Assembly: GCF_016592155.1 (NCBI RefSeq) | Contig: NZ_AP024237.1 | Location: 3,224,001-3,288,000, forward strand | From: Mycobacterium heckeshornense | GTDB lineage: Bacteria > Actinomycetota > Actinomycetes > Mycobacteriales > Mycobacteriaceae | Direction: 5' to 3' | DNA: 64,000 bases | Part shown: positions 6,753 through 33,483 of the stretch, in pieces | Numbering within the stretch: the first letter of the stretch is position 1 | Layout: each line of letters opens with the position of its first letter | Program-made: the position numbers and the translations under genes | Notes under the pieces: model-generated | Told to the model about the DNA's origin: nothing | Seen by the model: the letters and a program-made list of their open reading frames with translations, nothing else | Database searches by the model: none

Positions 6753-7283
6753 TCAGTCGTGCCAACCCTGACGCTGGGGATACGCGACGTTGATGCCCAG
6801 CAGCACCGACATGTGCACCGCGACGAACGCCCCCGCGAAGGCGAGTGCGAACGTCGCAGGGGCGAAGTCCCACCGGCCCGTCAGCGCGATCAGCCCGGGC
6901 AGGCTGGCCGCGCGGCTTGCGAAGTACAGCACGATAACGACGACCGAGACCAGGTCGCCGGCAAACCAGCCCAGCTGTGGCGCGCGAGGCTTGACAGCCA
7001 ACCACATCCCGCCGGCTGCCAGCATGCAGGCGGTGATCAGCACGGCGCAGTAGAGCACGAAGTACAGCGGCAGCGCCTGCTGTGTGGCCAACACGTAGGC
7101 GTGCGCGACGATGATACCCACCAGCAGCAATCCGCCCAGCGCGGTTACCGTGCGCGGCAGGTCGAACGCCACATAGCCGTTGAGGCGAAGCCAGCGAGAC
7201 AACCGGCTGCGCCGCCAGGTCTCGACAGCCGTTTCGGCGAGAGCATCCACTGCGGCTGCGTACCCGGCGGCGCCGCTGGGCAA
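6753..7283 (-). CDS. Small integral membrane protein
   Basis: A 176-residue protein with four hydrophobic segments at about residues 46-65, 72-94, 104-124 and 145-166. The best start is TTG at 7283, six bases after the GH15 stop codon and preceded by AGGGG; it ends 10 bp before the b561/molybdopterin oxidoreductase gene. The tight spacing suggests it is an extra membrane subunit of that redox system. No named family is recognised, and it lacks a clear heme-binding His pattern. Confidence 0.7.
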   Translation of the reverse strand: MPSGAAGYAAAVDALAETAVETWRRSRLSRWLRLNGYVAFDLPRTVTALGGLLLVGIIVAHAYVLATQQALPLYFVLYCAVLITACMLAAGGMWLAVKPRAPQLGWFAGDLVSVVVIVLYFASRAASLPGLIALTGRWDFAPATFALAFAGAFVAVHMSVLLGINVAYPQRQGWHD

Positions 7284-7289
7284 ACACCC

Positions 7290-9074: not shown

Positions 9075-9149
9075 CGTCCCCCTTCCGCGCGCCGCCTGGC
9101 ACTGTGCAAACCGGGCATACCCGGTTTGCGTTGCGGGTAGACACCGGAC

Positions 9150-10262
9150 ATGACTTCATGCGCCGGCTCCACCGTTCCCGTCGAGTCAGTGGAAGCCTCC
9201 GCCTACACGATTCCCACCGATGCTCCCGAGTCCGACGGCACGTTGACCTGGGACTCGACGACTTTCGTGCTGGTGACTGTGCACGCAGGCGGCAAGGTCG
9301 GGACCGGGTACACCTATGCGGACACATCTGTCGTGACCGTGGTGAAATCGAAATTGGCGGAGGTTATCACCGGTCGCGACGCCTTGCAGCCGCCCGCCCG
9401 ATGGGCCGAGATGGCGCATGCGGTGCGCAACCTGGGCAAGCCGGGAGTGGTGGCCGAGGCCATCTCCGCGGTCGACATCGCGCTGTGGGATCTGCGGGCC
9501 CGGCTACTGCAAGAACCGTTGATGATCGCGCTCGGCGCCGTGCACGACGCTACCCCGATCTACGGCAGCGGCGGATTCACCTCGTATGACAACGACACGC
9601 TGCGGGCCCAGCTGTGCGGCTGGGTCGAGGCCGGGATCCCCCGGGTCAAGATGAAAGTGGGGCGCGACCCCGACGCCGACACCGAACGGGTGAGCGCAGC
9701 GCGTTGCGCGATCGGCGACGCCGCCGAACTGTTCGTCGACGCCAACGGCGCCTACAGCCGCAAACAAGCGCTGCTGTGGGCCGGGCGCTTCGCCGAGTAC
9801 GACGTGCGGTGGTTCGAAGAACCGGTGACCTCCGACGACCTGTGGGGACTGCATCAGCTGTGCGAGCACGGCCCGGCGGGAATGGACATCACCGCCGGTG
9901 AATACGGTTACCACTTACCGTATTTCCAGCAAATGCTCGACGCGGACGCGGTGGACTGTCTGCAAGCCGATGTCACCCGCGCCCTCGGGATCACCGGGGT
10001 CCTCAAGGTCGGCGCATTGTGCGACGCCCGCAGCATGGACCTGTCGCTGCATTGCGCTCCGCAAATCAGTGCGCACGCCGGCACGGCGGTGTGGCACATG
10101 CGACACCTGGAGTATTTCCATGACCATGTCCGCATCGAAAAGCTGGCCTTCGACGGCGTTTTGGCGCCGCAGCCGGGCGGCGTGCTGCGTCCCGACCGCG
10201 GCGCACCGGGTCACGGCCTGACCGTCAAGCAGGCAGATTTGGAGGGGTTCCGGGTGGCCTGA
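9150..10262 (+). CDS. Enolase-superfamily enzyme, mandelate racemase subgroup
   Basis: The 370-residue protein shows an N-terminal capping domain and a beta-barrel with the superfamily catalytic pattern: KMK (Lys-x-Lys) at about 168-170, metal ligands in DANGAYS, EEPV and GEYG, then Asp in QADVTR and His in LHCAPQ. The combination of KxK with a later His fits the mandelate racemase subgroup, which includes sugar-acid dehydratases and racemases. The substrate cannot be read from the sequence. It stands alone, divergent from the GH15 gene, with no transporter or regulator beside it. Confidence 0.88.
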   Translation: MTSCAGSTVPVESVEASAYTIPTDAPESDGTLTWDSTTFVLVTVHAGGKVGTGYTYADTSVVTVVKSKLAEVITGRDALQPPARWAEMAHAVRNLGKPGVVAEAISAVDIALWDLRARLLQEPLMIALGAVHDATPIYGSGGFTSYDNDTLRAQLCGWVEAGIPRVKMKVGRDPDADTERVSAARCAIGDAAELFVDANGAYSRKQALLWAGRFAEYDVRWFEEPVTSDDLWGLHQLCEHGPAGMDITAGEYGYHLPYFQQMLDADAVDCLQADVTRALGITGVLKVGALCDARSMDLSLHCAPQISAHAGTAVWHMRHLEYFHDHVRIEKLAFDGVLAPQPGGVLRPDRGAPGHGLTVKQADLEGFRVA

Positions 10263-12653: not shown

Positions 12654-12728
12654 GCGCGGTTAGCTCAGCGGGAGAGCGCTTCCCTGACACGGAAGAGGTC
12701 GCTGGTTCAATCCCAGTACCGCGCACCA
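12654..12728 (+). tRNA. tRNA-Val (anticodon GAC), integration target
   Basis: Acceptor GCGCGGT pairs with ACCGCGC; the anticodon is GAC and the T-arm is CTGGTTCAATCCCAG. The sequence ends with an encoded CCA (12726-12728), unlike the other tRNA genes here. Its 3' 27 bases are repeated at 23315-23341 as part of the 33-bp att repeat, so an element has integrated into this gene and restored it. In M. tuberculosis the phiRv2 prophage also sits in a tRNA-Val gene. Confidence 0.97.
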
Positions 12729-12734
12729 GTGTTT
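12702..12734 (+). repeat. attL: 33-bp direct repeat within and beyond tRNA-Val
   Basis: The sequence from CTGGTTCAATCCC to CAGTGTTT is identical at 23315-23347; the flanking bases on both sides differ, so the repeat is exactly 33 bp. It covers the T-arm and 3' acceptor half of tRNA-Val plus six bases beyond the encoded CCA. This is the classic product of tyrosine-integrase insertion at a tRNA 3' end. Confidence 0.95.
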
Positions 12735-12738
12735 ACGC

Positions 12739-12796
12739 AGGTCAGAGGCGGTAGTTAGCTGAACAAACACGGTGCCGTGACCTAGATATGACCTGA
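12739..12796. promoter_or_regulatory. Left cluster of TCAGGTCA-type half sites (candidate arm sites)
   Basis: Three copies of the hexamer AGGTCA or its complement TGACCT occur just inside attL: AGGTCA at 12739-12744, TGACCT at 12778-12783 and TGACCTGA at 12789-12796. The same octamer makes a palindrome next to the integrase gene at the other end. Repeats beside both att sites fit integrase arm-type binding sites or excisionase sites. Binding is inferred from position and repetition only. Confidence 0.55.
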
Positions 12797-12834
12797 CAAT
12801 CGGCGACGCTGGCTCCGAACCCGAAGGGAGCCAC

Positions 12835-13137
12835 ATGTCCATTGAGTCCTACCGCCAGTTGTGCCGGGCCGGTGACGGGTTGGAGGCGGTGGTGTCTATG
12901 TTCGATTGCCCGCCGGGTTGTGAGATGCCCGCCGCCGGTGAGGGTCGGCGATGCCGCCGGCCGGCCGGCTGGCGGGTGAACCTGCACGGCTGTGAGGCGG
13001 TGCTGATGTGCGGGCAGCACAAGGCCGCGTGGCTGCGGCAGACTCGGGCGCAGTTTTACACGGGCCCGGCGCGCTGCGCGCATTGCGGGTGCGTGTTCGA
13101 CGACCTGGCCACCGCAGTACGGTTGGTGCGGCTATGA
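12835..13137 (+). CDS. Small cysteine-rich protein of the element
   Basis: A 100-residue protein starting at ATG 12835 after GAAGGGAG. It has a first cluster of Cys/His (CPPGCEMP, RCRRPAGW, HGCEAVLMCGQH) and a second pair, CAHCGC, near residue 82, a pattern expected for one or two zinc-binding sites. It is the first gene inside attL and its stop overlaps the recombinase start by ATGA, so the two are translationally coupled. I recognise no named family; a DNA-binding or accessory role for the recombinase is only a guess. Confidence 0.75.
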   Translation: MSIESYRQLCRAGDGLEAVVSMFDCPPGCEMPAAGEGRRCRRPAGWRVNLHGCEAVLMCGQHKAAWLRQTRAQFYTGPARCAHCGCVFDDLATAVRLVRL

Positions 13138-14066
13138 GCGCGGCCCGACACCACCACCGGCATTTGGCGTTGGTGGTGCCCGCCGCCGGTTCCGGCGATG
13201 ACGATGGCGAGCTGAGCGCATTGGAGCGCTGGGAGCTGTACATGCGCGGCGCGGGCCGCTCCAACCGCACGATCAACGAAACCCTGGGTGTGTTGCGCCG
13301 GTTGGAGAAATTCGCCGGGGTGGGCGTGGAGTCGGTGCGGCCCCTTGACATCGCCCGGTTCCTTGGCCGGCCCAATTTGAAGCCCAACAGCCGCGCCGCC
13401 TACTACGGCTACATTCACAGCTTCTACCGCTGGTTGGGGCAAAACGGCGGCACGAATGCCGCAGCGCAGCTACCACGCCCGAAGGCCTCCAAAGGCGTAC
13501 CCCGGCCGATCACCGATGAGCAGTTGCAAAACCTGCTCGCGGTGCGCATGCATCACCGCACCCGTGTGATGATCCTGTTGGCGGCGTTCGCGGGCTTGCG
13601 GGTGCATGAAATCGCCAAAATACGCGGCGAGGACGTTGACCCCCAGGCGCGCACCCTGCGGGTGACCGGCAAGGGCAACGTGACCGCGATACTGCCGCTG
13701 CATCCGCTGCTGGTTGAGGCCGCCGAGACGATGCCCCGGCGCGGTTGGTGGTTTCCGGGCAACGCGCGCCGGCGCGGGCAGCCGATCCGGCCACGCGGCG
13801 TCGCCGACATCATCGGGCAGGCAATGGATCGCGCCGGCATTCCAGGCGGCACCGCACATAGGCTGCGTCACTGGTACGGAACCAAGCTGGTCAGCGACGG
13901 CACCGATCTGCGCACCGCGCAAACCCTGCTGCGGCACGCCAATTTGAACACCACCGCCATTTACACTCAAGTGTCGGATGCTCGGCGCACGGAAGCGATC
14001 AACCGGCTGGCCGCGGGCGGTGCGCGCGCCCAACACGACGATGGAGCCGCCGATGGGCCGCGATGA
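13134..14066 (+). CDS. Tyrosine recombinase (second, XerD-like) of the element
   Basis: A 310-residue tyrosine recombinase starting at the ATGA overlap, 13134. An N-terminal SAM-like core-binding domain (about residues 30-120) is followed by the catalytic domain with the full set of residues: Arg in AGLRVHEI, Lys in GKGN, HRLRHWYGT (His-x-x-Arg), His in LLRHANL and Tyr in TTAIYTQ. It lacks the N-terminal arm-binding domain seen in the right-end integrase, so it is more like Xer-type or resolvase-type recombinases. The 3' end overlaps the next start. Two tyrosine recombinases in one 10.6-kb element is unusual; this one may resolve multimers or move a sub-module. Confidence 0.9.
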   Translation: MSAARHHHRHLALVVPAAGSGDDDGELSALERWELYMRGAGRSNRTINETLGVLRRLEKFAGVGVESVRPLDIARFLGRPNLKPNSRAAYYGYIHSFYRWLGQNGGTNAAAQLPRPKASKGVPRPITDEQLQNLLAVRMHHRTRVMILLAAFAGLRVHEIAKIRGEDVDPQARTLRVTGKGNVTAILPLHPLLVEAAETMPRRGWWFPGNARRRGQPIRPRGVADIIGQAMDRAGIPGGTAHRLRHWYGTKLVSDGTDLRTAQTLLRHANLNTTAIYTQVSDARRTEAINRLAAGGARAQHDDGAADGPR

Positions 14067-14376
14067 CTACCGGCAGGCGACGCCCGCCGAGCTGGCCGAG
14101 GAACGCCGCCGCGCCGAGGAAGCCCGCGCCGGCGCGGCCAGCGGGATCACCGAAGCCGCCAAGTGCCTCGACGAGTGCCGCCATCTGCTGCGCGACGCTT
14201 TGACCCGCGCCCGCTGGGCCGAGGAACACCTATCCGGTGCCCGCGCGGCGCGCGCGTTCGAGCTGGCCGGGAAAATCGCCGACACGATCACCTACGCCGA
14301 CCGGCTACGGTTCGTCGTCGAAGGCGACCTTCGCGCTGAAGGTGACCTGCGCGCCGAACAAGCAGGTACGCGATGA
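14053..14376 (+). CDS. Helical hypothetical protein of the element
   Basis: A 107-residue protein from ATG 14053, chosen because GGAG lies six bases upstream; an in-frame ATG at 14041 is the alternative. It is rich in Ala, Glu and Arg with heptad-like spacing (AELAEERRRAEEARAG) and probably forms a coiled coil. Near the C-terminus a six-residue unit, GDLRAE, is repeated. It overlaps the recombinase 3' end and ends in an ATGA overlap with the next gene. No family is recognised. Confidence 0.65.
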   Translation: MGRDDYRQATPAELAEERRRAEEARAGAASGITEAAKCLDECRHLLRDALTRARWAEEHLSGARAARAFELAGKIADTITYADRLRFVVEGDLRAEGDLRAEQAGTR

Positions 14377-14618
14377 GGGCAACCGTCACCCGTAAAGACC
14401 TGATCCGCTACGTGCTGGTCACACTGCCGTGGGACGGCCGCGACACGTGGAATGTCGGCCGCATCATCGACGACCTGCTGGCCGAATACCCCGGCCTGCT
14501 CGGCGAGCACGACCTGTCCGGCTACCCCGGCCCGGACCGGGTGATCCAGTACCTCGACGACCACATCGACCACGACACTTACCGGCGCATCGTGGAGCGG
14601 TGGGACTCAGCACCATGA
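14373..14618 (+). CDS. Small hypothetical protein of the element
   Basis: An 81-residue protein with ATGA overlaps at both ends (starts 14373, stops at 14618), which strongly supports translation. It contains a compact, probably helical region with acidic patches (WNVGRIIDDLLAEYPGL) and ends in an IDHDTYRRIVERW segment. I recognise no domain. Its place in the coupled run points to an element-specific role shared with the recombinase module. Confidence 0.7.
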   Translation: MRATVTRKDLIRYVLVTLPWDGRDTWNVGRIIDDLLAEYPGLLGEHDLSGYPGPDRVIQYLDDHIDHDTYRRIVERWDSAP

Positions 14619-14914
14619 CGGGAATCCTCGGTCATCTTTTCGCCGTGCTGCTGCTCGTCGGAATCATCGCGCACTTCATCTGGTGGATCATCGGCCTGGC
14701 GGCCATCGTGCTGATGGCCTGGACGCTCAAACGGGCCTACCGCGACATGTGCGCCGCGCGCGATGCGCGGCGCCGGCAGCTCGCCGAGCTGGCCGCTCGC
14801 GCCGACCGCCAGCACGCCTGGGTGATGGCCGGAGACGACCGAGGGATCTACGGCGACTACCCGCCGGCATGCCTGAACCGGGAACCGACCACTTGGCGAT
14901 ATGTGGTCCCGTAA
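14615..14914 (+). CDS. Small membrane protein of the element
   Basis: A 99-residue protein starting at the ATGA overlap, 14615. Residues 7-42 are strongly hydrophobic and could form one long or two short membrane segments (HLFAVLLLVGIIAHFIWWII and the following stretch). The rest is a charged, cytoplasmic-looking helix with KRAYRDMCAARDARRRQ. No family is recognised. Small membrane proteins in such elements can act in exclusion or lysis, but nothing here shows either. Confidence 0.68.
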   Translation: MTGILGHLFAVLLLVGIIAHFIWWIIGLAAIVLMAWTLKRAYRDMCAARDARRRQLAELAARADRQHAWVMAGDDRGIYGDYPPACLNREPTTWRYVVP

Positions 14915-14971
14915 CGACGGCCAGGTCGCGGCAGACTCGGCGCGCCGCTGGCGTGCTGCACACTAGTGGCG

Positions 14972-15307
14972 ATGGTGGAGTTCTTCGCTTGCGCCCGCTG
15001 CGCCGCCTCGGCGGATCCGGTCAGTGACGGCAACTCGACTATCGCCATCGTGCGTCACCGACCCGGCTGCTCGGTGCTGGCCGGGGTGATACGCCGGCGC
15101 TGGCCGCTACGGCGGCACACCAGCCTGCCCGACACGCCAGCCCTACAGCCCTTCGCTGCGCGCGCCGACTGGAGCCGCTGGCAGAAAGTCGTCAGCGCCG
15201 CGCGCGACCGCGCGGCGCGCGCGCCGTTCGCGCAAGTCGGCCGGCCACCCACCAAGACTGCCTACCCGGCCACCGACGACGGCCGGGTAGCTCACGCGCG
15301 GTCATGA
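14972..15307 (+). CDS. Putative zinc-binding small protein of the element
   Basis: About 111 residues from ATG 14972; a GTG two codons earlier (14966) is an alternative, and neither start has a clear ribosome site. The N-terminus has CARC and, 25 residues later, HRPGC, a CxxC...HxxxC arrangement compatible with a zinc site. The C-terminal half is basic and low in predicted structure. It ends by overlapping the convergent HTH gene by six bases. It may continue the plus-strand operon after a 57-bp gap. Assignment as a real gene is moderate. Confidence 0.5.
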   Translation: MVEFFACARCAASADPVSDGNSTIAIVRHRPGCSVLAGVIRRRWPLRRHTSLPDTPALQPFAARADWSRWQKVVSAARDRAARAPFAQVGRPPTKTAYPATDDGRVAHARS

Positions 15308-15808
15308 TGACCGCACATGCCAGTGCCGGCGCGCCGAGACGCCAACGAAAAGGGTCTCGGTCACCGGAGCGGCCGAACCGGCAACTACAACGGCCAGCGT
15401 TGTGGTTGGTGCCGGTTCGGCCGCGACCGGCTGTCCGGCGATGGCGTCCCGGTCGGCCGGTTCAAGATCAGGTGATCGAAATTGATCACCTGATATCTCA
15501 CGCTGCACCTGTCCGGCGATGGCGTCCCGGTCGGCCGGTTCAAGATCAGGTGTCTGAAATTCAGACACCTGCCGCCTGAGATCGGACATGACGGTGTTTC
15601 TGTCGGCTCCTGTTGCTGCGGCGATGGCCCGGACGCTCAGTCCGGCTTCCCGCAGCGAGCACACCACCTCGGCGATGGCGTCCTGGTCGGCCGGTCCAAG
15701 ATCAGGTTCCAGATTGGTACACCTACCAGCAAACGTCTCGGCCACTGTCGATTCAGGGCTTGTGCAGGTCACCCAAGTTGTCGATGCCAGCAACCTGGGA
15801 CAACGCAA
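15302..15808 (-). CDS. Repeat-containing helix-turn-helix protein of the element
   Basis: The reading frame contains a clear helix-turn-helix segment, LSVRAIAAATGADRNTV, at about residues 57-73, as in actinobacterial phage DNA-binding proteins. Before and after it a unit PADRDAIAGQ or PADQDAIAEV appears three times, the last two copies coming from a 78-bp DNA repeat. The start is uncertain: ATG 15808 gives 168 residues, but the first 35 residues look unlike a folded domain. Two perfect DNA palindromes lie inside the gene. It is the last gene of the long minus-strand run, downstream of the terminase small subunit. A regulatory role is inferred. Confidence 0.6.
   Translation of the reverse strand: MRCPRLLASTTWVTCTSPESTVAETFAGRCTNLEPDLGPADQDAIAEVVCSLREAGLSVRAIAAATGADRNTVMSDLRRQVSEFQTPDLEPADRDAIAGQVQREISGDQFRSPDLEPADRDAIAGQPVAAEPAPTTTLAVVVAGSAAPVTETLFVGVSARRHWHVRSS
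15431..15571. repeat. 78-bp-period direct repeat with two paired palindromes
   Basis: A 44-bp block (15431-15474) recurs exactly at 15509-15552, and a decayed third copy lies at about 15667-15707. Each exact copy runs into a different inverted repeat. At 15467-15494 the arms ATCAGGTGATC/GATCACCTGAT are separated by GAAATT. At 15547-15571 the arms CAGGTGTCTGAA/TTCAGACACCTG are separated by one base. The outer AGGTG/CACCT and central GAAATT are shared while the inner arm bases differ in a compensated way, so the palindromic form is kept although the sequence is not. This suggests a protein-binding site or RNA hairpin. Confidence 0.7.
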
Positions 15809-15873
15809 ACTTGCGTACGCTCAGCTTCCCGCAGCGAGCTATCGGTCGGCGGTAGTGGCCGAATCGACTGCGA

Positions 15874-16134
15874 CTATTCGACCAGCCGGTCATGCTCGTC
15901 CAGGACGAACGCGCCGCCGTGATGCTGGCCGCCCAACGCGAACTCGCGGTGAGGCAGGCCGGCGCGCATCAGCGCGGCCAGCAGTTGCGCCGAGGAAACC
16001 ACGACCGGACGGCCGGCTTTCAGGTCGAGTTCGAAGTCGCAGGCCCGGCCGGGGATACGCCAGCGCTGCCACGAAGGTTCATGCCCCGCGATCAGCACTT
16101 GCCGTAGGCCGGACGTGCTGCCGACCCGCCTCAT
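15874..16134 (-). CDS. Small hypothetical protein downstream of terS
   Basis: An 86-residue protein whose start overlaps the terminase small subunit stop by ATGA (16131-16134). It has a mixed alpha/beta look (VLIAGHEPSWQRWRIPGRACDFELDL, read in two parts) and a conserved-looking C-terminal stretch GGQHHGGAFVLDEHDRL. No family is recognised. The coupling to terS suggests a packaging-related or phage-interference role, which is inference from position only. Confidence 0.6.
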   Translation of the reverse strand: MRRVGSTSGLRQVLIAGHEPSWQRWRIPGRACDFELDLKAGRPVVVSSAQLLAALMRAGLPHREFALGGQHHGGAFVLDEHDRLVE

Positions 16135-16523
16135 GCGCCCGCGCCGCGCCAGCGCGTGTGAGCCGCGCGACGCGCCTGAGTGCTGCTGGTGCCGATCACG
16201 CGGATGGCGTTCGACGATTCATCTGGCTCGATTCGCAACCTGGCGAGTGATCGGTCCGCCGCCTGCCGTAGTTGGCGTAGCTCGGAGATGAGCGGGTTGA
16301 TGACCTCCTGGCCCTGTGACCCGCGCACCATCTTCGGTGCGCCGACCAGCTCGGCCTCAAGGGTTGCGGCCTGATCGACCAGCTTGGCCGCCGTCTCCAG
16401 CCAGTACCGCTCGACCGCGGTCAGAACCAGGCCCTCGGCGGTGGCTTCGGCAACGACTTCGCGCCACAGTTTGCGGCCCGCGGCAGCTAACCCGCGCGGT
16501 GGTCTTGGTGCCTGCATGCTCAT
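16131..16523 (-). CDS. Phage terminase small subunit, P27-like
   Basis: A 130-residue protein starting at ATG 16523 behind a strong GGGAGGA site. The N-terminal APRPPRGLAAAGRKLWREVV matches the P27-type terminase small subunit pattern of a proline-rich start, the GLG/AAGRxLW motif and helices. The segment INPLISELRQLRQAADRSLARL is the typical C-terminal helix. TerS recognises the packaging site and passes DNA to TerL, but no large subunit gene is present in the element. This is what is expected of a satellite that redirects a helper phage's packaging machinery, although a decayed prophage could leave the same trace. Confidence 0.75.
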   Translation of the reverse strand: MSMQAPRPPRGLAAAGRKLWREVVAEATAEGLVLTAVERYWLETAAKLVDQAATLEAELVGAPKMVRGSQGQEVINPLISELRQLRQAADRSLARLRIEPDESSNAIRVIGTSSTQARRAAHTRWRGAGA

Positions 16524-16654
16524 CGTCCTCCCTGGTCAGGGTCTATGAGCCGGGGAACCCGGCGCTGCCGCGACAAGCTGGCAAAAACGGCGTTTCGCCG
16601 GGCCGCACGCACAAGCTGAGCTGCTAAGGCGCTTCGGTCTGTGCGGCGCGGCCG

Positions 16655-16717
16655 GGGGGTTACCCCCTGGGTGGGTGCGCCGAGCGGTCCGGACCCGACT
16701 GCCAGACCGCTCGGCGC
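16655..16717 (-). terminator. Paired strong hairpins before terS
   Basis: Between the gene ending at 16762 and terS at 16523 lie two perfect inverted repeats. The larger has 13-bp arms, GCGCCGAGCGGTC at 16677-16689 and its complement at 16705-16717, with a 15-base loop. The smaller is GGGGG/CCCCC at 16655-16667 with a 3-base loop. No T-run follows, as is common for mycobacterial terminators. It probably separates expression of replication genes from terS, or may be a protein-binding or packaging site. Confidence 0.6.
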
Positions 16718-16761
16718 GTGCCGCGCCCAGCAACTCGGGAAGCGCGGCGGCTCCGCTCCGG

Positions 16762-16944
16762 TCATGTCGTGGTGACGGCGACTGGCGTCGAGGGGCCGAT
16801 CAGAAGTGTCAGGCCGGCGACCGTCACGACGCTGCCTTGGTTGCCGCCGTCGGCGGTTGCGGCGCGCATCGCGTCGAGGACTGTTGTTGCCTCGGCGGCC
16901 GTGAGTGTGATCGGTGCCTGGTTGCCGTAGCTGAGTGTCGGCAT
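16762..16944 (-). CDS. Small hypothetical protein of the element
   Basis: A 60-residue protein starting at ATG 16944 (MPTLSYGNQAPITL), preceded by GAAGGGA, which is a better start than the upstream codon at 16980. It has an alternating strand-helix-strand look with TAAEATTVLDAMRAA as the helix and VVTVAGLTLLIG as a strand. No family is recognised. It overlaps nothing and sits 16 bp after the coiled-coil gene, so it belongs to the same transcript, just before the strong hairpins. Confidence 0.6.
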   Translation of the reverse strand: MPTLSYGNQAPITLTAAEATTVLDAMRAATADGGNQGSVVTVAGLTLLIGPSTPVAVTTT

Positions 16945-16960
16945 GCGGTTCCCTTCGTGC

Positions 16961-17668
16961 TCAGTTGCCTTGTGCCACAAGCTGATCGAGCTTGGCCTGC
17001 TCGGCGTTGAGTTCGGCTCGGCGCAAGCCTGCGACTGCGACGGCCTGCTCGTCGATGGCCGGGGTGCCTGCCTGCTCGGCCAACTCGCGGATGCTTGCCG
17101 GAGTGTCGGTCGCGGCCGGCTCGCCGTTCGCCGCTTGCTCGCGGGCCGTCGCGGCTGCCTCGTCGATCACTCGGGTTGCCTGGGCCTGTAGCTCGGCCAA
17201 ATGCCGGTCGTGGGCGGCCTGTGCGCGTCCGGCGATCACGCCGTCGAGCCATGCGGTGAATGTCAGTCCGGCGTAGAGTCGCTGCACGCGCGGCGGCCGG
17301 GTGCGTGGCGCGCCGTTGTGCCGGTCCGGCAGCGGGTCGATGTGGTCGAGCCGGCCTGCGTGGGCGGCGGCGGCACCGGCCCGGGCGTCGAGTCGCTGCA
17401 GCTCGCCGAACGCGGCGACCGCTTCGGCCAGGTCGAGCCGGTCGGCGGCGGCCAGCTCATCGAGCTTCGCCATCGCCGCGTCGCGGCGCTCGCGGTAGCC
17501 GTCGAGCTGGGTGCCGTAAAAGCCCCGGTAGTAACGCAATTCGGTGGCGTCGCGCGCGGTCTGCTCGGCTTCGGCTATCGCCGCCGCGTGTTCGCGCAGC
17601 CTGGCGGCTTCGGCTTCGGCCTTTGCCAGTTGTGCCGCAATGTCTTGTGTCGGGGACGATTTCGTCAC
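16961..17668 (-). CDS. Coiled-coil protein of the element
   Basis: A 235-residue, alanine- and glutamate-rich protein that is helical nearly throughout, with coiled-coil-like blocks at about residues 10-45 (LAKAEAEAARLREHAAAIAE), 65-105 and 150-230. A short non-helical part in the middle includes DHIDPLPDRHNGAPRTRPPR. The start overlaps the preceding gene's stop by ATGA (17665-17668). It may be a scaffold-like or DNA-handling accessory, but no family is recognised and no catalytic motif is visible. Confidence 0.65.
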   Translation of the reverse strand: MTKSSPTQDIAAQLAKAEAEAARLREHAAAIAEAEQTARDATELRYYRGFYGTQLDGYRERRDAAMAKLDELAAADRLDLAEAVAAFGELQRLDARAGAAAAHAGRLDHIDPLPDRHNGAPRTRPPRVQRLYAGLTFTAWLDGVIAGRAQAAHDRHLAELQAQATRVIDEAAATAREQAANGEPAATDTPASIRELAEQAGTPAIDEQAVAVAGLRRAELNAEQAKLDQLVAQGN

Positions 17669-17916
17669 CTGGACCTCCCCTGGGCTAGCGGGCCGTCGGC
17701 GTCGCGTGGCAGGCTGCGAAGCTGCGCCGCTTTGGCCGTCAAGGATTCCGTGATGCGGCGGTGACGGGCCGTGACATCGCCGGGCGGCAGGTCAGCGAAG
17801 TCGCCGGGCGGGCGGGTCCGCGCCACAAGCGCGGCGAAGTCGGCGGCGGAAAGACCCGCCAAGTGCTCCTCCAGCGCCGCTCGCCACAGCTCAGACTCGG
17901 ATTCGTTGCCGCTCAA
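17665..17916 (-). CDS. Small hypothetical protein of the element
   Basis: An 83-residue acidic protein with ATGA overlaps to both neighbours, good support for expression. It contains a predicted helix, SELWRAALEEHLAGLSAADFAAL, cited here in outline, and an Arg-rich end. I recognise no domain. It lies between the HTH gene and the coiled-coil gene in the replication-to-packaging run. Confidence 0.62.
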   Translation of the reverse strand: MSGNESESELWRAALEEHLAGLSAADFAALVARTRPPGDFADLPPGDVTARHRRITESLTAKAAQLRSLPRDADGPLAQGRSR

Positions 17917-18266
17917 CGCCGCCGCCTTTCCGCTGCGTATTCACTGACCGCAGCCGCCGGGAACAGCCAGCGGCCGCCGACGAGCTGGCCGTCGAGGTCG
18001 GCGGCCAGACGCCGCACATGCCGAGCGGACATGCCGAGCGCTTGCGCGGCCTGTGTGGCTGTCAGCCACTGCTGCTGCAATTCTTGCTCGGCGCAACCGG
18101 ATTCATGTCCCGAAGTGGACGCGGCTGCGGCGCGAACGGCGCGGTCAAGACGGTCGAAGTGCCCGCGCAACCAGCTCGGGATCGGCTGGCCAGATAAACG
18201 GCGGCGACGGACTACCTCGGCCACGCAGAAATACGCGGCACGTACGTCGGTCTCGTCGAGTGTCAT
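17913..18266 (-). CDS. Helix-turn-helix (MerR/excisionase-type) protein of the element
   Basis: About 117 residues from ATG 18266, which overlaps the primase stop by ATGA. The C-terminal half has the excisionase/MerR-like helix-turn-helix: WLTATQAAQALGMSARHVRRL, then a wing, GGRWLFPAAAVSEYA. The N-terminal part is helical. It is a likely DNA-binding regulator or replication accessory acting inside the element, and is separate from the smaller excisionase-like protein at 21545. Confidence 0.72.
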   Translation of the reverse strand: MTLDETDVRAAYFCVAEVVRRRRLSGQPIPSWLRGHFDRLDRAVRAAAASTSGHESGCAEQELQQQWLTATQAAQALGMSARHVRRLAADLDGQLVGGRWLFPAAAVSEYAAERRRR

Positions 18267-20209
18267 TGCGCCCGCCGAGGTTTCCCGAGACCGCCCGCTG
18301 CGGCTTGCCGCCACGCGGCGGCCTTGCGTTCGCACCAGTAGCAGAGCCCGGTCTCAGGGTTGATGGGTGCGGGCCGACCGCACGGGCAGAGGCGTGTCGG
18401 CTTGGGCGTTGGCGTTGTAGTCCTCTTTCCGGTGTCGCCGTTAAGGCGCTCGGCGATTTGCTGGACACGATCGGTGAAGCCGGGGGTCGCGCTGGTGACA
18501 TCACCAGGCCGGCCGGTGGGCGCGTACGAGTTCTGGCTGTGTTGTGCCTTAAATGCACTTTTGCCTGACTCACGTGACTCAGCGCCTAGCTCAGTGCCGT
18601 TGAGCTGGGGTTTTACGCCGTTTCCCTGAGTCAGGGCATCTTGACTCAAAGCCGACTCGGAATCGCGGCTCCGATAACGGCCCCGATGTGAGCTATCCGC
18701 TGAGTCAGGATCACCTGACTCAGTTTCACCCCTGTGACCTGTATGTTCGTGCCGTGAGTCAGGTGAGTTAGGCAGTTTGGCATTGCTGGTCGTACATAAA
18801 CCGATCCCGCAGTAGTGGTGGACTTGTACGCCGTTGATTCTCGGTCGCGAGGTCTTTGCTGACGGCACGGCGGCGCGAAGGTCTCGCCCGAAGGTGGACT
18901 TCGAGCCGGGCCGGTGCCCGTTGTCTTCGGCCCAGGTTTTCCAGGCCCTGTAGAGATCGTCGCGGGAGACTTCGGCGTGTGGATCACGAACGCAGCGCTC
19001 CCGAACGAACGCCGACACCGGACTGGCCAGGTCCATCACCAGCAGCGCCGATTCCTCCGAGGACGCCGGGACGGTGAAGCGGCCATTGCGGTTGAGCCGG
19101 TCCAAGCCCTCCAACGCCCAGTTGAGAATGCCCGGGAGTTCGCGGCTCAGCTTCGCGTCCAGTGCGCGATCCTCGCGGCCGAGGAAACTTTCCGTTGTTT
19201 GAAGGACCAACATTCGGTTAGCGATGGCGCCCGAGCTGTCACGGAACCGGGGCAGCTCGTTGGACAGGATCACAAACCGGGTGGGCAGCTTTCCGGTCCA
19301 GCATTCACGGAATTTTCGGTCAACGGTCAAAACGTCTTCACCCGTGATCGACAGCAATCGTTCAACGAGGGTTTCGGTTTGGGTCTTGCCGCCCAGCCGG
19401 GCGTCGGAGATGACCGCCAGCGGTTTGCCCAGCAGCGGGGCTAAACCGAAGTTTGTTGCCAGGCTTGCCAGGGTGGGGCCGGCTACATGACCGCGGCCGA
19501 CCAACTGGGTGAGCATTCGCGCGATCGTGCCTTTACCGGAGCGCGTCGGGCCGATCAGCAGCAGCAGTTTCTGCATATCGGTGCGCCCGGACAGCACGTA
19601 GCCGATGTATTCCTGCAGCAGTGCAATCGAGTCCGGGTCATGCGGCCACAGTGAGTCCAGGAACTCAAACCACGCGGCAGGTTTTGGCGCGTTCGGATCG
19701 TAGGCAAACGGCACCGAGACGAGATTGAAAAACGCGGGGGTGTGGTTGTGAATCGTCCGCGTTGATAGGTCCAGTAGACCGTTCTCGCATGAGATGATTT
19801 GCTCCACGCCGGTTTCCGCCGCGCTATGTAGGTCGATCCACGATGGCGGGTCGATGTCGGCTGACAGGTGGCCGATGGCTTCCAGCGCCTCCACGACGTT
19901 GGCGATCTTGCGTTTGTCGGGGCTCCAGGGCCGGACCTCATGGTCAACGATCACACCCTTTTCCCGGATCGGGTGGTTGTAGTCGACATCGCCGAGGGTG
20001 TCGTAGATTTCGCTGCGAAGCTCCGCGATGTCCAGCTCGGCCCAATGGGTTTTACGCCATCGCATCCATCCGCCGCGCCACGCCAGCAGAACCCGCAGGC
20101 CGTTATCGCCGGTTCGGTATCGGCTGTAAAGTTCGCGGGCCACATCCAGCGGCGCAGTGGGCGGCGGGAACAGCGCACGCTCGGCGCGTGTGGTGTCGGT
20201 GGTAGTCAT
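18263..20209 (-). CDS. SF3 helicase/primase-like replication protein (phage/plasmid type)
   Basis: The 648-residue protein has the D5-N region (about residues 90-180: residues resembling LLDLSTRTIHNHTP and FFNLVSVPFAYDP) and an SF3 helicase domain with Walker A GPTRSGKGT near residue 225. A TRFVILSNELPRF segment with the SF3 motif C Asn follows near 320. The region 480-600 is low-complexity, Ser/Gly/Arg-rich, and the end carries a zinc-finger-like CPCGRP...CYWC. No archaeal-type primase domain is obvious at the N-terminus, so it may be helicase only. It should unwind an origin to replicate the excised element. Neighbours overlap by ATGA downstream and abut a 28-codon reading frame upstream. 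Confidence 0.88.
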   Translation of the reverse strand: MTTTDTTRAERALFPPPTAPLDVARELYSRYRTGDNGLRVLLAWRGGWMRWRKTHWAELDIAELRSEIYDTLGDVDYNHPIREKGVIVDHEVRPWSPDKRKIANVVEALEAIGHLSADIDPPSWIDLHSAAETGVEQIISCENGLLDLSTRTIHNHTPAFFNLVSVPFAYDPNAPKPAAWFEFLDSLWPHDPDSIALLQEYIGYVLSGRTDMQKLLLLIGPTRSGKGTIARMLTQLVGRGHVAGPTLASLATNFGLAPLLGKPLAVISDARLGGKTQTETLVERLLSITGEDVLTVDRKFRECWTGKLPTRFVILSNELPRFRDSSGAIANRMLVLQTTESFLGREDRALDAKLSRELPGILNWALEGLDRLNRNGRFTVPASSEESALLVMDLASPVSAFVRERCVRDPHAEVSRDDLYRAWKTWAEDNGHRPGSKSTFGRDLRAAVPSAKTSRPRINGVQVHHYCGIGLCTTSNAKLPNSPDSRHEHTGHRGETESGDPDSADSSHRGRYRSRDSESALSQDALTQGNGVKPQLNGTELGAESRESGKSAFKAQHSQNSYAPTGRPGDVTSATPGFTDRVQQIAERLNGDTGKRTTTPTPKPTRLCPCGRPAPINPETGLCYWCERKAAAWRQAAAGGLGKPRRAQ

Positions 20210-20296
20210 TCACAAAGAAACCTTTTGTGCGATGCGCGCCCCGGCCGCCTCGGCGGCGCGGCGCTCGCGCAGCTCATCGGAACGGTCGACGCTCAC
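20210..20296 (-). CDS. 28-residue coupled reading frame between TOPRIM and primase genes
   Basis: GTG at 20296 overlaps the TOPRIM stop (GTGA), and the frame ends in TGA at 20210-20212 immediately before the primase ATG (20207-20209). It encodes MSVDRSDELRERRAAEAAG followed by nine residues. Such exact packing between two coupled genes suggests a short translated leader or a small protein that links their translation. The peptide is charged and probably helical. Too short for family assignment; real expression is unproven. Confidence 0.45.
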   Translation of the reverse strand: MSVDRSDELRERRAAEAAGARIAQKVSL

Positions 20297-21201
20297 GATT
20301 CCGGCTCCCGGTCAAGCCACGACCAGCTGCCGGACCGCGACCAGCTGGCGATGCTGTACAGAACCTCGCGTTCACACCTTTCGGCGATCTCGGTCAGCCG
20401 CAGCGCCTCATCGTCGATCCAGAACTCGATCGCCTCCCGCACCAGATCACGCAGGATCGGGGACGGCAGCGCGTCGACTTCGACGGAATCACCGTCGAAG
20501 TCGGCGGCCCGGCTATCGGTTGTCTTGGTCGGCCGCGTCGGTAGGCGGTGTTCGGTTATCTGCGCGGGTGTGACCGCGAGCCGCTCGAAGTGGAACTCGG
20601 CGCGGGGCGCGAACTCGGTTAGCCGGCGCTGGATGTGCTTCCACGCGGCCAATCCGGAGGGATCGTGGTCACCAAGTTGGTAGATCACCGCGGGCTTGTC
20701 ATCGGCGATGATCTCCTGCGCGGTCTCCCACAGGAAGGTTTCGGAGGCGAAACCACGGGCCACCATCAACGGCACATCAAACTCATCGGTGACCGGGTGG
20801 ATCACTGATCGGATGGCGTCTTTCTCCGCCCAGACTTCGACGTGCACGTTCTGTCGGTCCCACAGGGCGCGCCGGTAGCAGGTCGCGGTGTTCTGCAGCG
20901 CTTGCTCGATGCTGGAATAGGTTTTCGGTTTGACCTGCCAGCGGGTGCCATCGGCGACCCACCCGTAAGGCAGATCACCGCGCCGGCGCATCAGCAGCAC
21001 GCGGTTTTGCACTTGCCGGTAGCCTTGCTCGGTCTTGGAGACCAAGCCCTTCGACACGACCCGGTAGAACAATCCGCGGATAGTGACGGGTTTTTCGGCG
21101 GCGGCGACCGCGTGGATCGCGTTCTCCAGCTCCTCAACCTGACGCCTGGTGCGCCGGGATCGTTTTATCGCACTAGTGCGATAAATAGCAGCAGTGCTCA
21201 T
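20293..21201 (-). CDS. TOPRIM-like domain protein of the element
   Basis: A 302-residue protein from ATG 21201, coupled to the upstream gene by ATGA. The middle has features of a TOPRIM fold: Glu in VWAEKDAI, a glycine-containing strand MVARGFASETF, then YQLGDHDPSGLAAW with the DxD acidic pair, as in topoisomerase VI A/Spo11-like proteins. The N-terminal part (TIRGLFYRVVSKGLV) resembles the helix-turn-helix cap of that group. It may nick or process DNA during replication of the element. The exact family is not recognised and the TOPRIM call is moderate. Confidence 0.6.
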   Translation of the reverse strand: MSTAAIYRTSAIKRSRRTRRQVEELENAIHAVAAAEKPVTIRGLFYRVVSKGLVSKTEQGYRQVQNRVLLMRRRGDLPYGWVADGTRWQVKPKTYSSIEQALQNTATCYRRALWDRQNVHVEVWAEKDAIRSVIHPVTDEFDVPLMVARGFASETFLWETAQEIIADDKPAVIYQLGDHDPSGLAAWKHIQRRLTEFAPRAEFHFERLAVTPAQITEHRLPTRPTKTTDSRAADFDGDSVEVDALPSPILRDLVREAIEFWIDDEALRLTEIAERCEREVLYSIASWSRSGSWSWLDREPES

Positions 21202-21548
21202 GGCATCAGTTCCCAGCGCTGCGCGATGAGTTCGGCGGCGGCGCGGTGGTGACCGCCCGCGGCCCACATCGCGCGTAGGCCATCCAGGTCAGGTGCGGGG
21301 GTTAAGCCGCGGTCGAGGAGATGATGTGCGGCTTCGGTGTAGCCCGCCGCGCCGGGGGCCGGATACCGCCAAGGGTCGCGGTACCCGCACGGCAGTGCTG
21401 GCAGGCGATACGATGCGGCGCGGCGTGACCGCAACCAGCGCCCGACTGAGCTAGGATGACTTAGGGCGGTCGGGTAGCCGCATCTTCTCTGGTGGTCGGG
21501 GTCCGGTCCTGCGGGGCCGGCCCCGACTTCTTTCGGCGGCTCGTTCAC
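21198..21548 (-). CDS. Hypothetical protein of the element
   Basis: A 116-residue protein, GTG start at 21548 overlapping the excisionase-like gene's stop (GTGA), and stop overlapping the TOPRIM start (ATGA). The N-terminal half is Pro/Arg/Gly-rich and poorly structured; the second half looks helical (TEAAHHLLDRGLTPAPDLDGL). The double overlap supports translation, but no family is recognised. Confidence 0.55.
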   Translation of the reverse strand: MNEPPKEVGAGPAGPDPDHQRRCGYPTALSHPSSVGRWLRSRRAASYRLPALPCGYRDPWRYPAPGAAGYTEAAHHLLDRGLTPAPDLDGLRAMWAAGGHHRAAAELIAQRWELMP

Positions 21549-21760
21549 CGGGCACCGCCCGGCTGCATGCTGGCGTCCAGCTCATCGAGGTCGATGCGCA
21601 CCAGTCGTTTTCCGTTGCGGTACAATCGGATTCGACCGTCGGCACCCATTTGACGAATGGTCCGCGTGGAAACACCGAGGTAATCCGCGGCTTCGCGCGG
21701 GCTGGCCCAGCGCCGCAGACGTGACGGAGATTTACTGAAGTCGCTTGTGCGTTCAGGCAT
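21545..21760 (-). CDS. Excisionase-like (AlpA/HTH-17) protein
   Basis: A 71-residue protein from ATG 21760, preceded by GGGAG; longer in-frame starts add an unstructured extension. It carries a MerR-like helix-turn-helix: WASPREAADYLGVSTRTIRQM, followed by GRIRLYRNGKRLVRIDLDEL, the excisionase/AlpA pattern. It is the first gene of the long minus-strand run, 253 bp downstream of the integrase gene. It probably acts as recombination directionality factor, or as the activator that starts excision and replication. Confidence 0.82.
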   Translation of the reverse strand: MPERTSDFSKSPSRLRRWASPREAADYLGVSTRTIRQMGADGRIRLYRNGKRLVRIDLDELDASMQPGGAR

Positions 21761-22012
21761 TTGAAAGCTCCCAGGCTTGAATGCGGGAATGTTGAGCGCA
21801 AACCGCTGTCCGCGCCGACTCCGCGCGCAGATGTTTCGGGGATTGCTCGACGTTCTCCGCCTGGGAGCCGAAGGCCGCCTGTGCCTTCCGTCGTTCGCCG
21901 GGTTTCGCGAGTGGCCTGCACCGCTACTGACGGCTAGCGATTGCATGCTAGCGCGTGGTGCCGCTAGTCGCCGGATGAGGCCAAACTTCGGCGTGTCGCG
22001 CCGTTGGTTGCT

Positions 22013-23143
22013 CTACCTGTTCTCGGCGATTTTGCTTAGCAGCGCGGCGATTTCACGGTCCCGGCCTTGCGCGGCGTGCTGGTATTTCAAAGCGGCCGTC
22101 GGCGTTGAGTGACCCAGCCGGGCCATCAACTCGGCGAGCGAGGCCCCGGTGGCCGCCGCCAACACCGCGCCGGAATGCCGCAGATCGTGAAAGCGAAGAT
22201 CGGGGCGGTTGGCAGCGTCACGCGCTTTGTAGAAGTGCCGGTTCAAGCTGGCGGGTGCTAGGTGGCGTCCACTCTTGGCCGGGAACAACAGCGAATCACG
22301 CATGCCGCCAACGTGTCTGGCGAGATGTTCCTCTATGGCCGGCAGCAGGTGCGGCGGTATCGCGACATCGCGAATACTGGCGTCGGATTTCGGTGTGGTG
22401 ACCTGGAATTGGCCGCCGTGGACACGCACCACGGCGCGACGCACACGGATCACTTCATCGGACAGGTCGATGTCCATCCGGCGCAGCTCGGCGAGTTCCC
22501 CGAACCTCAGTGCGCACCACGCGCCGAGCAACACGAGCAGCTTGTACTCGTCGGGCATCGCATTGGTGATGATCTCCAGCTCGTCCAGCGTGGCGGGCCG
22601 GATGCGGTGGACCCGTTTGGCGGTGCCCGCGCCACGGACCACACACGGATTGAGAGCGATCTTGCCGTCGCTGGTCGCGGTGCCCAGAATCGTCCGAAGC
22701 AGCCCGTAGCAGTGCGCGCGCAGGGTAGGGGTTTTGCGGTGAGCCATCGCCGCGTGCCAGCCGCGCACGTCCTCGGCCGTGATGGATGCCAGCGGCATGC
22801 CACCGAATGCGGGCAGCAGGTGGTGGTCGAGCAGCTTGCGGTAGTGCTCGCGGGTGCGCTCCTTCAGGTCGCGCTGGGACAGCCAGGTTTCGGCGTACTC
22901 GGCGAACGTCAGCTTCGGCTCGGCCGGTCGCTCGGCCTCCGGTGGTGTCCATGCGTTACGCACGATCTCGGCCTGCTTGAGCGCCAGCCAGGCGCGGGCC
23001 TCGGCCTTGGTGAGAAACAGGGTGGGCGCTTTGTGGCGGCGGCCGTCCGGCCCGTAGTAGCGGGCGCGGTAGCCGGTGGCGAGCTTATCGACCGACCCAA
23101 ACGTGCCGGAAGTGCGGTTCCTGCGACCCGCTCCCCGTGTCAT
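22013..23143 (-). CDS. Tyrosine integrase of the element
   Basis: The 376-residue protein has an N-terminal arm-binding region (about 1-65, TGYRARYYGPDGRRHKAPTLF in outline), a SAM-like core-binding domain (about 75-165) and a catalytic domain with Arg in CALRFGEL, Lys in TPKSD, HDLRHSG, LGHST and Tyr in ALKYQHA. It faces away from attR, with its start 172 bp inside the repeat, the usual place for an integrase that acts on a tRNA 3' end. It should catalyse insertion at tRNA-Val(GAC). Palindromic TCAGGTCA sites lie 28-54 bp upstream of its start, where they could also control its own promoter. Confidence 0.94.
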   Translation of the reverse strand: MTRGAGRRNRTSGTFGSVDKLATGYRARYYGPDGRRHKAPTLFLTKAEARAWLALKQAEIVRNAWTPPEAERPAEPKLTFAEYAETWLSQRDLKERTREHYRKLLDHHLLPAFGGMPLASITAEDVRGWHAAMAHRKTPTLRAHCYGLLRTILGTATSDGKIALNPCVVRGAGTAKRVHRIRPATLDELEIITNAMPDEYKLLVLLGAWCALRFGELAELRRMDIDLSDEVIRVRRAVVRVHGGQFQVTTPKSDASIRDVAIPPHLLPAIEEHLARHVGGMRDSLLFPAKSGRHLAPASLNRHFYKARDAANRPDLRFHDLRHSGAVLAAATGASLAELMARLGHSTPTAALKYQHAAQGRDREIAALLSKIAENR

Positions 23144-23170
23144 TGTCTGATTCCCAGTCCTCTTGGCTTC

Positions 23171-23197
23171 TCAGGTCATGACCTGAACATGACCTGA
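23171..23197. promoter_or_regulatory. Right cluster of TCAGGTCA palindromes upstream of int
   Basis: A perfect 16-bp palindrome, TCAGGTCATGACCTGA (23171-23186), is followed by one more half site, TGACCTGA (23190-23197). The same octamer occurs beside attL. The cluster lies just upstream of the integrase start (23143). It may be the integrase arm-binding region, an operator for int, or both. Confidence 0.6.
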
Positions 23198-23314
23198 CCA
23201 TAGCACACTTGCTTCCGCTTGCCGCCGCATGCTTCCTGTTGTACTGTCCCTTGTCAGCGCAGGCAATTCAACGTCGGCGCTGGTCAATAAGCAAAAGTCA
23301 GCAAACCGATTGGA

Positions 23315-23347
23315 CTGGTTCAATCCCAGTACCGCGCACCAGTGTTT
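23315..23347 (+). repeat. attR: second copy of the 33-bp repeat
   Basis: This copy is identical to 12702-12734. It carries only the 3' 27 bases of tRNA-Val, including CCA, and no upstream tRNA part, so it marks the right junction between element and chromosome. Confidence 0.95.
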
Positions 23348-33432: not shown

Positions 33433-33483
33433 CCCGCGTGACCGCAAGCGCGGCGCAGCCGGGCGCGGCGGGTCACCGCGATT
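33385..33483 (+). repeat. Tandem repeat, 46-bp copies with 53-bp period, at the aftC end
   Basis: Two identical 46-bp copies, 33385-33430 and 33438-33483, begin GTGACCGCAAG and end GGGTCACCGCGATT. Each copy has imperfect dyad symmetry (GGTGACC/GGTCACC, 10-bp arms in the first). The first copy codes for the AftC C-terminus, the second fills the gap before msrB. Size and place fit a mycobacterial interspersed repeat unit, which often varies in copy number. Confidence 0.8.

Follow-up and report, generated by a model that had tools for sequence, protein, structure and literature searches.

The 64-kb window analysed here, a stretch of 64,000 nucleotides from the single-contig chromosome (4,957,188 bases) of Mycobacterium heckeshornense, contains an element of 10.6 kb that is integrated in a tRNA-Val(GAC) gene. 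This element is probably a phage satellite without a capsid gene that behaves in the manner of a phage-inducible chromosomal island (PICI): it would combine its own small terminase (TerS) with its own cohesive-end (cos) site, and a Bernalvirus-like helper phage would supply the large terminase (TerL), heads and tails. By its sequence, the element has attachment (att) sites, the gene content listed in the table and an intact terS beside a Bernalvirus-type cos, and no other virion gene was found. A Bernalvirus-like helper lineage is strongly indicated, and packaging by means of its own TerS and own cos is proposed with moderate confidence.

Induction, excision, replication, packaging and transfer are each inferred and would proceed as follows. 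The element would reside in the tRNA-Val gene by virtue of its tyrosine integrase until a Bernalvirus-like phage ('cluster T'; the records looked up say Bernalvirus) grows in the cell and the helix-turn-helix (HTH)/excisionase-type protein triggers excision. The D5-type primase-helicase would replicate the excised circle, and the element's TerS would bind its own cos and recruit the large terminase of the helper, with cleavage at the phage-like cos core. The DNA would then be pumped into helper-made heads and exit with helper tails. Mobilisation by a helper phage through the element's own TerS had been suggested in a preliminary description of this DNA, and this suggestion gains support here, now with a specific cos site and a candidate helper lineage.

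The cos site and the small terminase

At their physical ends, the records of Bernal13, Mendokysei, ZenTime222 and RonRayGun have a GGGGTGACCCCC box in common, followed by ACCG(A/G)AACGCC(A/T)T|AGCACC. Upstream of the element's terS, the reverse complement reads GGGGGTAACCCCC ... ACCGAAGCGCCTTAGCAGC, and by analogy to the phage record ends the cut would lie between 16626 and 16625. The pattern GGGTNNCCCCCN{14,20}CSGNNNNGCCWTAGC matches once in the window and not at all in 100 shuffles. A matrix built from four pattern-independent sites scores the element's cos at 21.4 bits. With a matrix from eight phage and prophage sites the score is 21.1 bits, the next site on either strand of the window reaches 7.1 bits, and 200 simulated 64-kb single strands gave a mean of 9.6 and a maximum of 19.7 bits.

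The exact pattern was found six times, in five of 396 genus genomes, and the reversed pattern used as control was not found. The six matches are the window element, a second element of the same chromosome (L009), an element in genome G128 (L046), prophages in G009 and G041, and L147 in G395; five of them sit directly upstream of a TerS gene, and the sixth, L147, is a tape-measure element described below. In the host genome, the window element and L009 are the only places with the exact pattern. A genome contig collection contained 11 stretches with the pattern: three mycobacterial ones beside TerS (G041, G128, G009), the L147 element again (L084/L147) and seven without query genes, one of which is 506 bases long. 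Three of the four stretches from a viral contig collection adjoin a TerS of the Bernalvirus-like type; the fourth (L074) has a site identical to that of L073, and nothing was recognised in the part examined.

The region upstream of TerS was also surveyed at 47 distinct places, derived from 58 loci because 11 places had been fetched twice. Nine places carry the cos, with scores of at least 17.0, and the next best place scores 12.4. These nine comprise three Bernalvirus-like prophages (G009 and G041, both in the training set of the matrix, and G223) and six elements, namely the window element, L009, L046, L047 (G024), L125 (G152) and L126 (G306). A different stretch is common to the TerS upstream regions of L111, L112, L115 and L117, near GACCGGTCGGTTATGCGG ... 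ATCCGATGCGACTTAAACC, and is perhaps another cos type; the place of L112 carries a capsid gene (L051).

The P27-type small terminase named in the preliminary description was confirmed by its PHROGs family and by 43.8-45.5% identity to phage TerS proteins over 86% of its length in nine records. All nine are mycobacteriophages of one kind, and the four that were looked up are classed as Bernalvirus. When ten head and tail proteins of Bernal13 were compared with the element, TerS was the sole match; when the 19 element proteins were compared with Bernal13 and Mendokysei, only two matched, TerS at 44-46% and the integrase as a remote similarity of 24%. The middle columns of the TerS alignment are closer to Bernal13 (18/26) than to L046 (12/26), whereas the N-terminal columns are closer to L046 (30/63) than to Bernal13 (22/59). 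In the N-terminal columns, however, the prophage L048 (27/60) matches as well as the satellite L047 (25/59), and no weight is placed on this difference.

When the 19 proteins were scanned against Pfam and PHROGs (E<=0.1), none was called as a capsid, portal, TerL or lysis protein, and six-frame searches with capsid, TerL, portal and protease profiles found none in the window element or in L009, L010, L045, L046, L047, L125, L127, L128 and L131. The controls L048, L050 and L055 were matched, but their sequences had built the profiles; among the independent controls, L062 was matched weakly and L061 was missed though PF05065 detects its capsid, so the sensitivity of this search is limited. The capsid of L126 was recovered by a profile to which L126 had contributed nothing. 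Within this sensitivity, the earlier statement that large terminase, portal, capsid, tail and lysis genes are missing holds, and Pfam, PHROGs, the virion profiles and the Bernal13 proteins revealed no structural gene among the small unassigned genes.

The helper phage probably originates outside this genome, because no Bernalvirus-type TerL was found in it. PF03354 detected no TerL in the host genome, but this family also misses the Bernalvirus-type TerL of G009 and G041; the Bernal13 TerL protein was therefore used as query and had no match in the host chromosome at 1e-30. The host genome has a single weak match to phrog_2 (4172931, 2.2e-6); 17 of the 19 genomes scanned have a match, many of them equally weak. 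PF05065 detects one capsid in the host genome, which belongs to the region L011.

Element layout and related elements

Perfect 33-bp direct repeats bound the element at a repeat-to-repeat distance of 10,613 bp, and the left copy overlaps the tRNA gene, in agreement with the preliminary description. Of the 14 AGGTCA/TGACCT motifs in the element, six sit just inside its ends, three per end, an arrangement expected for integrase arm sites, which they may represent. From the right end, the gene order is tyrosine integrase, HTH_17/excisionase-type protein, small protein, topoisomerase-like protein, D5/DUF5906 primase-helicase and HTH_17 protein, followed by small proteins, cc235, cos, TerS, p86 and the repeat-containing HTH protein; on the opposite strand, starting at the left end, a cysteine-rich protein is followed by the second tyrosine recombinase and four small proteins.

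Table. Features of the element in window coordinates, with family matches and relatives.
Feature	Position	Strand	Observations
tRNA-Val(GAC)	12654-12728		3' end overlapped by left 33-bp repeat
attL core, 33 bp	12702..12734		3' end of tRNA-Val(GAC)
Three AGGTCA/TGACCT motifs within attL	12739..12794		putative integrase arm sites
Cysteine-rich small protein adjoining attL	12835..13137	+	weak phrog_2857 'tail fiber' match, 2e-6, a doubtful label for 100 aa
Second tyrosine recombinase beside attL	13134..14066	+	best solved match Gp33, 5vfz, 2.6e-68
Small protein	14041..14376	+	common to L009 (99%)
Small protein	14373..14618	+	common to L009 (100%), L011 (86%)
Putative membrane protein (judged by eye)	14615..14914	+	phrog_6131, function label absent, 7.6e-19
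Small protein	14966..15307	+	common to L009 (99%), L010 (65%)
HTH protein with repeated DLEPADRDAIA units containing palindromes	15302..15808	-	weak HTH_38 match, 0.0017
p86, directly downstream of the TerS gene	15874..16134	-	homologues recur after TerS
Small terminase TerS	16131..16523	-	phrog_1496 2.3e-14; Pfam Terminase_4 24.1 bits, just below the 24.7 cut-off
Open frame overlapping cos	16520-16765		probably no gene
Bernalvirus-type cos, GGGTNNCCCCC box and cut-site core	16623..16665	-	107 bp upstream of terS
p72, small protein between cc235 and cos	16762..16980	-	identical in L009
cc235, encoded just upstream of cos	16961..17668	-	relatives in L009, L046, L047, L125, L147
Small protein	17665..17916	-	common to L009 (86%)
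HTH_17 protein	17913..18335	-	common to L009, L045, L046, L125, L127, L128
D5-type primase-helicase (replication)	18263..20209	-	D5_N, DUF5906, Pox_D5; phrog DNA primase 5e-75
Topoisomerase-like protein	20293..21204	-	phrog_6247, 3e-54
Small protein, no family in Pfam/PHROGs	21198..21548	-	36% relative in L128
HTH_17/excisionase-type regulator	21545..21946	-	PF12728 8.3e-8, phrog_66 6.5e-8; putative AlpA-like role
Tyrosine integrase	22013..23143	-	PF00589 6.9e-17, PF14659; 51.5% to L127 integrase
Three AGGTCA/TGACCT motifs within attR	23173..23195		putative integrase arm sites
attR core, identical 33 bp	23315..23347		

The family matches in the table bear out the integrase and the helicase/primase-like protein of the preliminary description. 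Its 'AlpA-like' protein is of the HTH_17/excisionase type, and the Pfam AlpA family itself has no match at E<=0.1. It had overlooked the second tyrosine recombinase, the cos site and the fact that the chromosome has four further regions related to the element. Relatives of the second recombinase occur in L126 (57%), L147 (38%) and L128 (32%), and its best solved match, Gp33, is presumably the integrase of phage Brujita. A recombinase of this kind stands beside another recombinase in several elements (window 13134-14066, L126 6217-7074, L147 5058-6008); a second integration system and multimer resolution are candidate roles.

Relatives of the topoisomerase-like protein are encoded by phages that infect Pseudomonas, Flavobacterium, Achromobacter and other hosts, and both HTH_17 proteins carry weak TerS labels (phrog_57). 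The repeats encoding DLEPADRDAIA (window 15431-15717, L010 7491-7593, L011 8992-9015) hold palindromes CAGGTG-N-CACCTG, the inner arms of which vary between copies yet remain complementary; they are possible operator or replication sites. PADLOC models gave no match at E<=0.01 for the seven of the 19 proteins that were tested. Outside the element, about two copies of a 53-bp unit lie at 33380-33483, with 98% matches.

A TerS profile matched 70 of the 396 genus genomes at 1e-12. Directly after TerS, p86 is found in L009, L046, L047, L125, L126, L127, L128 and L131, and it follows TerS in all six cos-bearing TerS elements. Six homologues of p86 were retrieved from 5.8 billion proteins in a word-limited search, the closest of them being 98% identical and from Mycobacterium heckeshornense. 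Of the element proteins checked against phages, TerS has the nine mycobacteriophage matches given above, while at E<=0.01 neither p86 nor cc235 has a match in the 50,697 phage records searched. The predicted structure of p86 improved from a pLDDT (predicted local distance difference test) of 46 with a single sequence to a confident 88.0 with an alignment (A2), and this model had no match among PDB and viral structures (best E 1.9 and 2.5). A relationship of cc235 to the Bernalvirus scaffold was considered and is unsupported, with a match probability of 0.4% from a two-sequence profile; no cc235 relative was detected in L126 and L127.

The same TerS-p86 set was found at other tRNA genes, as the preliminary description had proposed to check: at tRNA-Ser in L046 (10,706 bp), at tRNA-Phe in L125 (10,254 bp) and at tRNA-Arg in L009. 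L126 (9,303 bp) occupies a tRNA-Val gene with the anticodon TAC and has its own capsid gene (PF05065, 7.9e-19); for L047 the contig stops and the ends were not found. The only other element seen at tRNA-Val(GAC) is the satellite-like L127 (11,120 bp), which lies at the same site in another genome. It has the same gene order as the window element, and the two resemble each other in integrase (52%, the closest among the loci compared), HTH/excisionase-type protein (66% over 56 residues), TerS (41%) and p86 (47%). The virion profiles found no capsid in L127. These relatives in other genomes are not full prophages: L046, L047, L125 and L127 also lack a detected capsid or TerL. Cargo differs between relatives (L125 13335-14285, L125 11978-12712, L046 7344-7973) and includes a phrog_5990 protein as well as proteins with an M78 peptidase domain and a 3'-5' exonuclease domain, with weak matches to models of defence genes.

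Four more related regions, L009, L010, L011 and L045, are present in the host chromosome. L009 (10,759 bp) shares with the window element a TerS of 98% identity and a left module of 99.6% identical DNA, and differs in integrase and primase. L011, whose ends were not found, has a serine recombinase (PF00239), a capsid gene and a primase 93% like that of L009; it adjoins an HNH gene of the 13E12 repeat type, hence we call L011 phiRv1-like. L010 has small genes and repeats in common with the window element, and its integrase and ends were not found. L045, at tRNA-Pro between 43-bp repeats, measures 12,382 bp and encodes a TerS of 37% identity, with neither a Bernalvirus-type cos nor p86; transposase genes inside it (6811-9512; PF01609, ISL3-type domains) may account for its larger size. 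Blocks of 93.6 to 99.6% identity connect L009 7951-9818 with L011 5514-7400 and window 12810-18328 with L009, and L011 and the window element have short stretches in common. Module exchange among the resident elements is evident from these block-wise identities, which suggest that it was recent.

L147 (4959-14974 of this locus, in G395, the metagenome-assembled genome SZAS-8) is bounded by 36-bp repeats that lie 9,980 bp apart. It encodes two tyrosine recombinases, one 38% like the second recombinase of the window element and the other weakly similar, and a cc235 relative, which is followed by cos and then directly by a tape-measure protein of 1,248 residues (phrog_3547, 1e-201). None of the TerS types used as queries was detected in it. 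Against 1,437 phage records, the eight best rows for the tape-measure protein, at 50 to 51%, name Bernal13, Mendokysei, Nairb, Whitty, RonRayGun and Ibrahim; two further records match at 60-80% across a shorter part. Through this similarity a second gene connects the cc235-cos family with the Bernal13 group, and L147 is possibly a tail-modifying satellite.

Alternative explanations and packaging size

Several observations weigh against a satellite of Bernalvirus-like phages. The identity of TerS to the phage proteins is only 44-46%, and the nine matching phage records were isolated on M. smegmatis, a host other than this one. The cos pattern was composed after the window site was known, which makes the matrices from phage and prophage sites the fairer test, and three of the eight matrix sites (L071-L073) had been retrieved by that pattern. 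L127 has no recognisable cos of the Bernalvirus type. The family is not purely capsid-less, because L126 encodes a capsid although it shares the cos type and p86. A search with the right flank for an empty attB gave one usable relative (G001, 71%), a short locus without a tRNA. Finally, the absence of structural genes rests on searches of limited sensitivity.

It is unlikely that the element is instead a decayed Bernalvirus-type prophage that lost most of its genes and kept terS and cos by chance. Prophages of this type are present in the genus, and TerS and cos are indeed of their type, but no further element protein matches Bernal13 or Mendokysei apart from the remote integrase similarity, and no major capsid protein, TerL, portal or protease was found. 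Moreover, the reduced TerS-p86 set without a detected capsid recurs at 10.3 to 11.1 kb in tRNA-Ser, tRNA-Phe, tRNA-Val and tRNA-Arg genes, and the distant capsid-less TerS element L045, which has no p86, also exists at 12.4 kb. A satellite that takes its head from the co-resident L011, and only TerL and tails from a phage, would fit with the sole PF05065 capsid of the genome and with the short stretches shared by the two elements. We regard this as quite improbable, as L011 shows no Bernalvirus-type cos and the relative L046 lives in G128, where PF05065 matches nothing. Given that recombinases, topoisomerase-like proteins and primases occur outside phages too, the element might be a plasmid-like or conjugative integrative element that captured terS; this is very improbable, since the Pfam scans revealed no conjugation, relaxase or FtsK/TraB-type family and since capture of terS alone would not bring a matching cos into six elements.

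A phage satellite with a Bernalvirus-like helper thus remains our preferred explanation, and we put forward a broader idea tentatively. Bernalvirus-like phages might be the specific hosts of a whole guild of satellites in actinobacteria, in which the cos core of the helper and mostly cc235 are kept, the replaced helper function differs, and lengths of about one quarter of the helper genome reflect small heads or packaging as tetramers. The cos-sharing elements encode TerS and p86 (window element, L009, L046, L047, L125), TerS, p86 and a capsid (L126), or, where TerS went undetected, a tape-measure protein (L147). The lengths of 10,613, 10,706 and 10,759 bp are close to one quarter of Bernalvirus genomes (42,392 to 43,511), which suggests a size quantum, a rule blurred by L125 (10,254), L126 (9,303), L127 (11,120), L147 (9,980) and L045 (12,382).

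Comparison with known satellites

The following statements on published systems refer to the passages of the cited sources that were drawn on here. PICIs are described by a constellation of features that includes phage-dependent induction and packaging (PMC6092414), and gene set and size alone, which the preliminary description took to define them, are not sufficient. The same source also names attachment sites that prophages never occupy, a conserved layout of the replication origin, interference with the helper, and transfer in particles at high frequency; of relevance to the first two, L127 is the one other occupant seen at this tRNA-Val, and palindromes and repeats lie at 15431-15717. The window element resembles PICIs in its att sites and integrase, a candidate regulator, a replication gene, terS, element-specific genes and the lack of detected structural or lytic genes, the latter within the limited sensitivity stated above. 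The candidate for the AlpA- or Stl-type regulator of PICIs is the HTH_17/excisionase-type protein, to which Pfam AlpA has no match; p86 and cc235, which recur in the relatives, correspond to PICI-exclusive genes, and TerS with cos is, judged by sequence, the packaging determinant (PMC6092414). PICIs typically measure about 15 kb (PMC6092414) or about 10-15 kb (PMC11364771), and 10,613 bp fits only the wider range.

The packaging scheme differs from those of the PICIs compared. Staphylococcus aureus pathogenicity islands (SaPIs) that encode TerS recognise pac sites, whereas cos-type PICIs use the TerS of the helper, in E. coli together with Rpp (PMC6092414, PMC5052747, PMC6739421, PMC10690885); some other PICIs have a terS homologue (PMC6092414). 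In contrast, the window element pairs its own intact TerS with its own cos, a scheme not met in the passages of the PICI literature compared, and cos-type SaPIs and E. coli cos PICIs rely on helper TerS without a full TerS of the satellite. Capsid-forming PICIs are likewise small, integrated and equipped with terS, but they bring their own genes for heads and packaging, TerL among them (PMC10690885); capsid, portal, protease and TerL were not found in the window element. Satellite-encoded tape-measure proteins have been reported from the phage-inducible chromosomal island-like elements (PLEs) of Vibrio, and predicted ones are mentioned in unrelated satellites (PMC12987554). L147 is like the PLEs in that a tape-measure gene stands beside satellite genes; host and helper are different, and the window element itself has no tape-measure gene.

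In mycobacteria, candidate PICIs were chosen by the presence of an integrase and a major capsid gene, and their mobilisation 'remains to be determined' (Gauthier 2023, PMC10654092). These candidates and phiRv1/phiRv2 share with the window element the mycobacterial hosts, an integrase, the location of tyrosine-integrase members at tRNA genes and, in some of them, replication and terminase genes (PMC10654092), whereas no capsid gene was found in the window element. Capsid-based searches would miss elements like this one; among the capsid-bearing loci examined here, its cos type upstream of TerS was seen in L126 alone. In a literature search by titles and abstract openings, no published description of a mycobacterial satellite with a cos site was found. 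In addition, one mycobacterial chromosome can carry several related elements with common modules. Bernalvirus phages such as Bernal13 and Mendokysei have the same TerS family, the same cos box and cut-site core and the same order of cos and terS; they differ from the window element by possessing TerL, portal, capsid, tail and lysis genes, and apart from TerS (44-46%) no protein matches closely. Because these phages are named, have been isolated and grow on M. smegmatis, the shared cos makes the mobilisation of mycobacterial PICI-like elements directly testable in laboratory strains.

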